Part shown: positions 14,306-28,729 of the stretch, in pieces
How positions within the stretch are numbered: the stretch's first letter is position 1
Layout of the letters: each line of letters begins with the position of its first letter
Source: an uncultured Erysipelotrichaceae bacterium
GTDB lineage: Bacteria > Bacillota_I > Bacilli_A > Erysipelotrichales > Erysipelotrichaceae
Direction of reading: 5' to 3'
Length of the DNA: 52,398 bases
NCBI GenBank assembly: GCA_944326095.1
Contig: CALVCO010000006.1
Coordinates: 1 to 52,398 of the forward strand
Position numbers and translations under genes: made by a program
Notes under the pieces: generated by a model
Database searches by the model: none
Told to the model about the DNA's origin: nothing
Seen by the model: the letters and a program-made list of their open reading frames with translations, nothing else

Positions 14306-14334
14306 TACCCAAGGCTTTTAGCCTTGGGTATTTT
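14306..14334 (+). terminator. rho-independent terminator after acylation cluster
   Basis: TACCCAAGGC (14306-14315) pairs perfectly with GCCTTGGGTA (14321-14330) over a five-base loop and is followed by TTTT. It ends the plus-strand run. It also abuts the stop codon of the convergent DUF4143 gene, although the minus-strand T-run is poor. Confidence 0.85.
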
Positions 14335-15607
14335 ACAATATAGATATTTCTTCAAGTAAAAAATCTATTAGATTGCAGTGATAAAATCCGTTATTATCAT
14401 AAAAATTATGGGGAATATCCATACGGATTATAACCTTTTTAAAGAAATCTCCTGTTAGTTTTAAAGATTGTAGTTCACTTTCTTCTTTTTGTTCGGTATC
14501 CATTTGATATGCGGATTGAATATAGATACGATGGTCACCATCGTTTACAACAAAATCAATTTCTCTTTGTGTTCGGATATTTTTTATCCGTTGTTCAACT
14601 ACACCAACATCTACTGAATATCCTCTTTTTAATAATTCATTATATATGATATTTTCCATGATATGTCCTGGGTCATATTGTCTATAATTTAAACGAGCAT
14701 TGCGAAGACCTAAATCTGTATAATAATATTTATTAGGATAATCGAAATAAGACTTACCTTTTATATCGAATCTTTTTGCCGTTTCTATAAGAAAGGCATC
14801 CATGGTATGAGTTAAATAAGAGGATACTAAATTGTTATTAATTGATTCGTGGCGCATAGAAGTTAAAGCATTAGCAATCTTTGTTGGGTTGGTAAGTGAG
14901 CCAATCTGTGATGCAATATAATCTAAAATGGCATTTAAAATGTCTTCCCGTTCTAATTTGTTACGTTCTACAATATCTTTCACATATACTTCTTCAAACA
15001 AATTGGAAAGGTAATTTTTTTTATCTTTTTCGTCTTTTAAAGCAACAATGCGTGGCATGCCACCGTAAAGCATATATTGGTCTAATGCTGTTCTTTTTTC
15101 GCCACCAATATAGGTGTAGAATTCCTTGAATGATAGCGGATATACATGAATTTGGGTGGCTCTGCCACGAAACTCTGTTGCAATGTCTTTGGAAAGCATT
15201 TTGGAGTTGCTTCCAGTTACATAGACATCTAAGTTTTTATGGGCTTTTAGTTCATTGAGCATATCATATATAGTAACTTCAATATCATAATTTTCTTTAT
15301 CTTTAACTTTAATTGTGTTTTGCACTTCGTCAATAAATAAATAAAAATTTTCGCTTTTCTTATTATTAACTATATTTTCTACATAGTCACAAAGGGTAAT
15401 AGGATTACGAAATTTATAATTTTTTCGTTGATCAAGTTCCAAACGAATAATATTTTCTTCTTTTACTCCTTGAGATAGAAGATAGTCATTAAACAAATCA
15501 AAAAGAAGTACGGATTTTCCGCATCGACGTATGCCTGTGATAACTTTTATTTCGCCATTCCATATATTGTTAATCAGACGGTTCAAATAATAATCGCGTT
15601 TTATCAT
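14333..15607 (-). CDS. AAA ATPase with DUF4143 (first copy)
   Basis: A 424-residue protein of the AAA_14-DUF4143 family. Walker A is GIRRCGKSVLL (about 27-37), Walker B is LFIDEVQN, and VTGSNSKML follows as the sensor strand. The C-terminal half is DUF4143 with YGGMPRI and a nuclease-fold-like REIDFVV...YIQ segment in which the usual Lys is replaced. The family is common in bacteria and archaea, often as lone genes, and its function is not established. The start at 15607 follows AGAGGTGA; an upstream in-frame ATG at 15640 lies inside the promoter-proximal repeat. It has its own promoter flanked by two 34-bp repeats. It shares only the family pattern with the copy at 27,512. Confidence 0.85.
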   Translation of the reverse strand: MIKRDYYLNRLINNIWNGEIKVITGIRRCGKSVLLFDLFNDYLLSQGVKEENIIRLELDQRKNYKFRNPITLCDYVENIVNNKKSENFYLFIDEVQNTIKVKDKENYDIEVTIYDMLNELKAHKNLDVYVTGSNSKMLSKDIATEFRGRATQIHVYPLSFKEFYTYIGGEKRTALDQYMLYGGMPRIVALKDEKDKKNYLSNLFEEVYVKDIVERNKLEREDILNAILDYIASQIGSLTNPTKIANALTSMRHESINNNLVSSYLTHTMDAFLIETAKRFDIKGKSYFDYPNKYYYTDLGLRNARLNYRQYDPGHIMENIIYNELLKRGYSVDVGVVEQRIKNIRTQREIDFVVNDGDHRIYIQSAYQMDTEQKEESELQSLKLTGDFFKKVIIRMDIPHNFYDNNGFYHCNLIDFLLEEISIL

Positions 15608-15618
15608 AATATCACCTC

Positions 15619-15652
15619 TAACTTTTGCCATATCTGCCACAAGATATAGATA
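15619..15652 (-). repeat. operator-like repeat, copy A (downstream of the -10)
   Basis: A 34-bp unit that matches copy B (15693-15726) at 29 of 34 positions in the same orientation. It covers the transcribed leader between the -10 and the ribosome-binding site of the DUF4143 gene. The inverted-repeat character is weaker than in copy B. Confidence 0.6.
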
Positions 15653-15692: not shown

Positions 15693-15726
15693 TAACTTTT
15701 GACATTTATGCCACAAGTTAGAGATA
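15693..15726 (-). repeat. operator-like repeat, copy B (upstream of the -35)
   Basis: Contains a near-palindrome with arms AACTTTTGACAT and ATGCCACAAGTT separated by two bases; ten of twelve positions pair. It is centred 74 bp from copy A, about seven helical turns, so both copies would face the same side of the DNA. Confidence 0.6.
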
Positions 15727-27374: not shown

Positions 27375-27400
27375 AGTATTTTAGTTTTTTAAAATATATT

Positions 27401-27422
27401 AAATTTCCGAAATCGGAAATTT
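27401..27422. repeat. perfect palindrome, copy 1, upstream of second DUF4143 gene
   Basis: A 22-bp perfect palindrome with arms AAATTTCCGA and TCGGAAATTT around AA. Its right 17 bases (27406-27422) are repeated exactly at 27445-27461. Confidence 0.8.
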
Positions 27423-27441
27423 TGACAGAAAAATATAAAAT

Positions 27442-27463
27442 AAATCCGAAATCGGAAATTTAT
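27442..27463. repeat. palindrome, copy 2, abutting the -35
   Basis: The core TCCGAAATCGGA (27445-27456) is identical to copy 1 and the flanks continue as an imperfect inverted repeat. It ends immediately before the TTGACT -35 element at 27464, the place where a repressor or activator would touch RNA polymerase. Confidence 0.8.
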
Positions 27464-27492
27464 TTGACTATTTATCCTTGCTTTGCTATATT
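27464..27492 (+). promoter_or_regulatory. promoter of second DUF4143 ATPase gene
   Basis: TTGACT (27464-27469), a 17-base spacer and TATATT (27487-27492). The expected start site near 27499 leaves a leader of only about 13 bases before the ATG at 27512. A second TTGACA at 27422-27427, between the two palindromes, has no good -10. Confidence 0.8.
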
Positions 27493-27511
27493 TTAGGTGA
27501 GGTGGTTATTT

Positions 27512-28729
27512 ATGATAATTCGCAAAAATTATTTAGATAAACTAATTTCATGGAAAGAGCATGATATCATTAAAGTTATTACTGGAATTAGAAGAAGTGG
27601 AAAATCTACATTGTTAAAACAGTTTCAAGATTATTTGAAAGATAATGGAATAATGGATGAACAGATTATTTCAATTAATTTTGAAGATTTAAGATATGAG
27701 AATTTGTTAAATTATAAAGCTTTATATGAATATATTGATGGCAAAATAATTTCTGGGCAAAAGATGTATATATTTTTAGATGAAATTCAAAAAGTTTCGG
27801 AATTTGAAAAAGTAGTTGATAGTTTGTATATTCAAGAAAATATTGATGTTTATATTACAGGTTCTAATGCCTATATGCTTTCTTCAGATTTGTCTACATT
27901 TTTGTCTGGACGTTATGTAGAAATTTCTATGTTGCCTTTATCTTTTAAAGAAGTTTATGAAGAAAAAGGTGGGGATAAAGAAGAAGTTTTTTATCAATAT
28001 TTAAAATATGGGGGATTTCCATATCTAACAACAATTTCTTTAAATGATGAGAAATTGGATATGTATTTGGAAGGTATATATAATACGGTTATTGTTAAGG
28101 ATATAGAGGAAAGAGAAAATAGGAAAAATAATGATCCAAATAAAAGAAAGATTACTAATATTGTGCTATTAAAAAGTATTGCTAAATACTTGGCTAGTAC
28201 AATTGGCAGTATTATTTCGGTTAAAAATGTTACAGGTTATTTAACTTCGAGTGGTAGAAAAGTTTCTTCAACAACTGTAGATGATTATATGGAAGCTTTA
28301 AAAGAAGCATTTATTTTTTATCCTGTTGAACGTTTTGATATATCTGGGAAAAAGATTCTTAAAACATTGAATAAATGGTATATTGTTGATTTGGGTTTGA
28401 GAAATTATATGTTGCCCAAAAAAAACTATGATTTAGGATTTTCTTTAGAAAATATCGTATACTTTGAACTACTTCGAAGAGGATATAGGGTTAATGTAGG
28501 AAATATAGAAAATACTGAAATTGATTTTGTTGCGCAAAAAAATAGTGAGATCATTTATTTTCAAGTTACAATAAGTTTGATTGATCAACAAACTTTTGAA
28601 AGAGAATTATTTCCATTAAAGAATATTAAAGATAATTATAGAAAATATGTGTTAACATTGGATAAATTTACAATTGGTAATTATGAGGGAATTGAAGTTG
28701 TTAATGCGATAGATTGGCTATTAAAATAA
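27512..28729 (+). CDS. AAA ATPase with DUF4143 (second copy)
   Basis: A 405-residue AAA_14-DUF4143 protein: Walker A GIRRSGKSTLLKQF, Walker B IFLDEIQK, sensor strand YITGSNAYML, then YGGFPYL and the C-terminal TEIDFVA...YFQVT nuclease-fold-like segment with Gln in place of a catalytic Lys. The ATG at 27512 lies behind GAGGTGG; an upstream GTG overlaps that site. It stands alone between the DUF6020 gene and the sugar-nucleotide operon, with its own promoter and two palindromes. The two DUF4143 proteins in this window are clearly diverged. Function of the family is unknown; autoregulation or self-nonself recognition has to be tested. Confidence 0.86.
   Translation: MIIRKNYLDKLISWKEHDIIKVITGIRRSGKSTLLKQFQDYLKDNGIMDEQIISINFEDLRYENLLNYKALYEYIDGKIISGQKMYIFLDEIQKVSEFEKVVDSLYIQENIDVYITGSNAYMLSSDLSTFLSGRYVEISMLPLSFKEVYEEKGGDKEEVFYQYLKYGGFPYLTTISLNDEKLDMYLEGIYNTVIVKDIEERENRKNNDPNKRKITNIVLLKSIAKYLASTIGSIISVKNVTGYLTSSGRKVSSTTVDDYMEALKEAFIFYPVERFDISGKKILKTLNKWYIVDLGLRNYMLPKKNYDLGFSLENIVYFELLRRGYRVNVGNIENTEIDFVAQKNSEIIYFQVTISLIDQQTFERELFPLKNIKDNYRKYVLTLDKFTIGNYEGIEVVNAIDWLLK

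Follow-up and report, generated by a model that had tools for sequence, protein, structure and literature searches.

The PDC-S01 ATPases, in which an ATPase is fused to a member of the PD-(D/E)XK superfamily, rank as the fourth most common defence candidate across prokaryotes, with experimental validation pending for most such candidates (PMC12988326). Autoregulation is well described for the controller (C) proteins of restriction-modification (R-M) systems, small proteins that bind operators upstream of their own gene and whose motif groups follow the protein groups (e.g. PMC3758141, PMC4041747, PMC5282649). RptR represses the promoter of a phage-defence island via three repeats with a palindromic core (PMC12255303), and the mycobacterial IniR is a regulatory ATPase that binds a promoter and whose AAA+ domain was likened to SSO1545 (PMC5760070). 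In this study, we analysed 52,398 nucleotides of contig CALVCO010000006.1 from an uncultured Erysipelotrichaceae bacterium (the window), in which the second of two genes for ATPases with AAA_14 and DUF4143 domains is preceded by a pair of palindromes. Our results suggest, with a probability of about 0.82, that this gene is a self-contained autoregulatory unit, whose ATPase would bind its own private operators and most likely repress its own promoter.

Sequence analysis supports this at several points: the operators exist, are phased and are unique in the genome, they covary with the recognition helix, also in unseen genes, and they are inherited as one unit with the gene. In the proposed mechanism, two private palindromic operators, about four helical turns apart and phased to the gene's own promoter, would each be bound by the ATPase as a presumed dimer through its winged-helix domain, with probable cooperation between them, and the bound ATPase would most likely repress that promoter. 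Residues 252-254, at the start of the recognition helix, would read the inner bases of the half-site, so that each member would know its own operator but no longer those of relatives from which it has diverged. The conserved ATPase motifs make it probable that ATP governs the protein's state. What we infer is that the protein physically binds, dimerises and represses instead of activating, that ATP or a signal controls it, and any part it may play in phage defence.

Paired operators at the promoter

The gene (27512..28729, + strand, ATG at 27512) encodes 405 amino acids. The protein matches PF13173 (E=1.6e-35) and PF13635 (E=1.9e-17) and, over its full length, one PADLOC model of the PDC-S01 family (PDLC04787, residues 1-405, E=4e-154), which comprises AAA_14 + DUF4143 ATPases of the COG1373 type; searches of NCBIfam and PHROGs gave no useful match.

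Two operator copies, neither assigned to a strand, lie upstream. The distal copy (27401..27422; dyad centre 27411.5, about -88 from the predicted transcription start) reads AAATTTCCGA-AA-TCGGAAATTT. Its 10-bp arms are perfect, and the initial annotation, which called it a perfect 22-bp palindrome, was slightly generous because the central AA is not self-complementary. The promoter-proximal copy (27440..27461; dyad centre 27450.5, about -49) abuts the -35 box and has, as had been noted, exactly 17 bases in common with the first, TCCGAAATCGGAAATTT at 27445-27461. The spacing of the two copies is 39 bp. The -35 box TTGACT (27464..27469) and the -10 box TATATT (27487..27492), on the + strand with a 17-nt spacer, are placed by consensus match only; a ribosome-binding site, AGGTGAGGTGG, was recognised in the sequence at 27495..27505 (+ strand). 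The coordinates agree with the earlier description of the repeats as lying directly upstream of TTGACT-17-TATATT and the ATPase gene.

With up to three mismatches, the operator motif gave three matches in the window, all at this site, against 0.27 expected by chance. With up to two mismatches, only both copies and the reverse reading of copy 1 were found in the whole 1.6-Mb source genome, which is 99% complete. The distal operator is present at the same place in relatives of 79-82% identity, which keep CCGAAATCGG. Each of the four genes tested, from three genomes, had an operator that was unique in its own genome, apart from a single additional copy next to the gene it belongs to and, in a 4.3-Mb genome, two sites with 2 mismatches.

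The enrichment of palindromes before other DUF4143 genes, which had been proposed as a check, was borne out in 181 non-redundant upstream regions (150 bp before the start), mostly of the window's subfamily; these and the other relatives come mainly from one bacterial phylum, some from others. Both inverted repeats (p=6e-18) and direct repeats (p=3e-10) were commoner there than in 447 control regions upstream of neighbouring genes. A repeat score of 14 or more was reached by 59% of the DUF4143 regions vs 21% of the controls, and in 61% vs 21%, few or none of a region's own shuffles scored as high; with AT-rich controls alone, the DUF4143 excess grew. The spacing of the direct repeats was 39-41 bp in 41 of the 80 genes with strong direct repeats, while the controls were flat, and other subfamilies had spacings of 72-87, 32-33 or 23 bp. 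Within the window's clade, with each gene's own site as the query, 50/51 further copies were at +/-40 or +/-80 bp, and none were detected in shuffled sequence. With a rough sigma-70 promoter model as the reference, the site centres of this clade cluster at about -90, -50 and -10.

An inverted repeat close to the boundary of a gene is often a terminator, and such repeats might also be attenuators or other RNA structures. Here, the repeats lie upstream of the -35 box, their copies are 39-41 bp apart, and they vary with the helix of the protein, so that this explanation has a negligible likelihood in our estimation. A search of the inverted repeats against Rfam found no family match, and a terminator or RNA element was rejected on repeat position and this result.

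Covariation of operator and recognition helix

The AlphaFold2 model of the window protein (mean pLDDT 89.5, pTM 0.90) has a winged-helix domain at residues 217-291 (28160..28384, + strand). Residues 252-254 form the start of its helix 253-265, the winged-helix recognition helix; the model and the operator covariation together delimit this helix at residues 252-265 (28265..28306, + strand), with S252, S253 and T254 as the putative specificity residues. In 65 genes with a clear dyad, average-product-corrected (APC-corrected) mutual information between protein columns and half-site positions was highest for T254 with position 6 (z=12), followed by T254 with 5 (z=6.8), S253 with 7 (z=6.3) and S252 with 5 (z=5.9), the four highest values of all. 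A dependence of the motif on the C-terminal domain had been suggested in the initial annotation. The motif does follow the protein sequence, and what determines it is the winged helix inside the protein (252-254) rather than the PD-(D/E)XK-like domain at the C-terminus.

A rule for half-site position 6 was fixed before new genes were fetched: R, K or H at residue 254 predicts G, E or D predicts C, N predicts T, and Q predicts A. The hold-out consisted of 24 unseen genes, each less than 80% identical to the training set and to one another; its identity cut-off to the window protein was moved from 0.42 to 0.40 between two looks, as genes were added. The training table predicted 71% of the half-site bases vs 28.5% with shuffled residues (0/20,000), and K, H and N were right in 30/30 half-sites. 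In the full table of 114 genes at less than 90% identity, residue 254 went with position 6 as H with G in 27/28, K with G in 17/18, R with G in 7/7, N with T in 18.5/19, D with C in 4/5 and E with C in 8.5/18, and N or H at residue 253 was accompanied by G at half-site position 7 in 18/24.

When the operators were permuted only inside 50%-identity clusters, the observed agreement was never reached (0/5000). Once whole-protein identity had been corrected for, residue 254 also outranked every other column in its partial correlation with operator similarity. At 40-60% overall identity, half-site identity was 0.73-0.86 if residues 252-254 were common vs 0.45-0.63 if none was. Relatives of 55-63% identity, from several classes and phyla, mostly retain TTCCGAwwTCGGAA, and L155 and L160 (59-62% identical) have switched to TTTTGCT/AGCAAAA or a close variant. 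Such covariation would be expected of proteins that each read their own operator. Because the repeats are enriched and the motif follows the recognition helix, the self-specific recognition and self-regulation put forward in the initial annotation appear well supported, at least as a reading of the sequences. Its idea of a mutually insulated set under selection did not hold: same-genome paralogues differ no more than equally diverged cross-genome genes (half-site identity 0.44 vs 0.49, p=0.55), a comparison of low power with 14 same-genome pairs.

Separate regulators usually bind promoter-adjacent palindromes, and another host transcription factor might read the operators, with the ATPase gene merely its target. 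We consider this highly improbable, as the operator bases track the recognition-helix residues of the gene's own product both out of sample and within clusters, the window motif occurs nowhere else in the genome, and the relatives of 79-82% identity keep operator and gene without the same neighbours. The covariation with the gene's own recognition helix was the ground on which the other host factor was rejected.

Several observations weigh against autoregulation through a residue-base rule. Site calling required a clear dyad together with a partner site and left out all other genes, and some genes, e.g. L040, have no clear site. In the hold-out, E254 was right in only 4/14 half-sites, D and P failed on one gene each, and the Q rule, unscored by the automatic table, failed on both its genes. 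The E254 rule works in only one subclade and breaks in the ETLYNY subclade. Finally, proximal sites are most often at -50, a position next to the -35 box that could suit an activator as well. In the genes with the ETLYNY recognition helix (L064, L244, L362, L380, L387), the C-G step sits one base inward relative to the other E254 genes, so that the E254 rule needs a register shift.

Regulatory sign, compact unit and protein

Repression is the likelier sign of the predicted control. In roughly one in four members of the clade, a site is centred near -10, and sites in other subclades lie over the -35 box or between the promoter and the ribosome-binding site, which favours occlusion. The protein might instead recognise its own operators and activate its promoter by positive feedback, or do both, like the R-M controller proteins. 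The sites at about -50 and -90 in most of the clade would be compatible with RNA polymerase contact; the positions just named fit occlusion better, and we regard self-activation as unlikely, though it deserves consideration.

The alignment of the window's DNA with its two closest relatives begins at 27400, where the distal operator has its edge, and stops at 28723, about three codons before the gene end; relatives of 79-82% identity have the operator and the gene in common, not the neighbours. In 127 pairs with 72-94% protein identity, the median limits of the homology were 77 bp before the start codon on the 5' side and, on the 3' side, 6 bp short of the stop codon's end. The flanks, read by eye, were unrelated even at about 90% identity, and long common flanks were found in a few exceptional pairs, e.g. 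L081/L087 and L293/L285. As homology usually ends at the operators and the stop codon, operators, promoter and gene act as a compact unit that occurs in many contexts.

The unit changes its genomic context, because even where the proteins are 90-94% identical the homology breaks off at the distal operator and at the stop codon. This limit, and the presence of a PD-(D/E)XK-like domain, would also fit a mobile one-gene element with the palindromes as recombination or transposition ends and a recombinase or nuclease as its product. Such an element is improbable. The copies are one-sided, with an operator copy within 600 bp after the stop in 5/112 genes, and the sites are phased to the promoter. 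Moreover, the catalytic Lys is gone in 327/341 relatives, which have Q-x-[A/S/T/C] at the nuclease-motif position (Lys in 13/341), and inspection of 13 pairs by eye revealed no common end sequence. A domain search of the window protein found no recombinase domain; a transposable element with repeats at both ends and a recombinase was rejected on this absence and the one-sided sites. Nothing speaks for a self-marking role beyond regulation, which had also been considered, as the sites are promoter-phased and almost never after the gene. An imperfect extra operator copy just past the gene was seen in L090 (G010:C5:136-158) and in L284, there right after the stop codon.

The protein of this predicted autoregulatory unit has an intact ATPase core. 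Walker A, GIRRSGKS, is at residues 25-32 (27584..27607, + strand) and Walker B, DE, at residues 90-91; G25, G30, K31 and E91 are present in 341/341 relatives, with S/T at 32 and D90 in 340/341. The PD-(D/E)XK-like domain at residues 308-398 (28433..28705, + strand; E336, D338, Q351-V-T353) was named from its motif pattern and from PMC12988326. The catalytic Lys is replaced: of the D...(D/E)xK triad of an active PD-(D/E)XK nuclease, D338 is kept and Q351-V-T353 stands in place of E-x-K, which is present in distant DUF4143 proteins, unlike the window's branch. Since Q-V-[A/S/T/C] stands where an active enzyme has E-x-K, the window's branch is probably not a standard nuclease and may act via DNA binding, not cutting. 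A sequence search for solved structures related to the window protein found none at E up to 1. The best Foldseek matches of the model were SSO1545 (2fna), PABY2304 (2qen) and Orc1/Cdc6 (2qby), which are AAA+ ATPases like the window protein, Orc1/Cdc6 being origin-bound initiators; with TM-scores of 0.46-0.49 or less, they are related folds, not close homologues.

The first DUF4143 gene of the window (14333..15607, - strand) has the same plan with a different operator, as had been described. Its pair, CTTGTGGCAnAnATGnCAAAAG, is unrelated to the motif of the second gene and lies beside its ribosome-binding site (15622..15643) and 74 bp further upstream (15696..15717), with no strand assigned and no further genome match within three mismatches. 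The source genome has five DUF4143 genes, and 4/4 of those having upstream sequence bear a private repeat or palindrome at the promoter. In L002 and its relatives, the subclade of the first gene, the promoter lies between two copies spaced 72-87 bp, one upstream of it and the other next to the ribosome-binding site, which suggests a loop or a double block. Tandem direct repeats occur upstream of L017, L025, L034, L160, L204 and L224, members of distant subfamilies with intact E-x-K (32-33 bp apart), and of L011 and L015 (about 23 bp apart); the distant E-x-K subfamilies may follow their own code. At L038, the second gene downstream of the window's orthologue is another, very different DUF4143 gene with its own upstream pair (ACTCCCCATAAAAATCTG twice). 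L230 (G041:C1:3023741-3024580), a relative of 72% identity, is broken by a stop codon and indicates that a DUF4143 gene can decay. Another relative, G011 (3.9 Mb, one contig), carries 21 DUF4143 genes and is a natural test bed for cross-talk. Both DUF4143 genes of the window are inside a polysaccharide cluster (14333-34780) with glycosyltransferases, an O-antigen ligase, sugar-nucleotide enzymes and a UDP-galactopyranose mutase, and the annotated neighbours of the second are mostly polysaccharide genes.

Comparison with described systems

PDC-S01 is among the most abundant families called defence in prokaryotes (PMC12988326); the predicted DNA specificity would be its first directly testable molecular activity. 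The published passages on PDC-S01 that we consulted contain nothing on operators, DNA specificity or autoregulation, give the anti-phage role as a candidate only and report no test of it in this family. They describe PDC-S01 with a PD-(D/E)XK member, whereas at least the window's branch is without the nuclease-motif Lys. In the family literature (DUF4143, COG1373, PDC-S01), subscription papers and preprints aside, we found no account of operators or of a code. Part of the DNA specificity may be readable from about three residues, and the family would provide a great many regulators that have naturally co-evolved with their operators. A wider picture, which we offer as a doubtful speculation, is that the DUF4143/PDC-S01 ATPases form a large class of mobile one-gene self-recognition units, operator-bound sensors that are held back until release, e.g. 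when an invader disturbs the DNA or by ATP-driven assembly, frees the protein to act and switches the gene on; with operator and helix changing rapidly, units that share a host would remain independent.

RptR is a small regulator in its own right, which controls an island of several genes and has a single conserved site, TAGCTA; it is not a diversifying self-specific family. IniR differs in that it activates another operon and has another DNA-binding domain and a MalT-like sensor. The C proteins of type II R-M systems are small helix-turn-helix regulators controlling a neighbouring restriction enzyme; here, a lone AAA+ ATPase with its own winged helix apparently controls only itself. The window gene is not a controller gene of that type, as it encodes a 405-aa ATPase amid mostly polysaccharide genes rather than a small helix-turn-helix protein beside a restriction enzyme gene. 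That autoregulators and their operators can evolve together is known, e.g. from the R-M controller proteins; what appears to be new is the family of ATPases concerned, its private operators with their phasing, and the rule that links residue to base.
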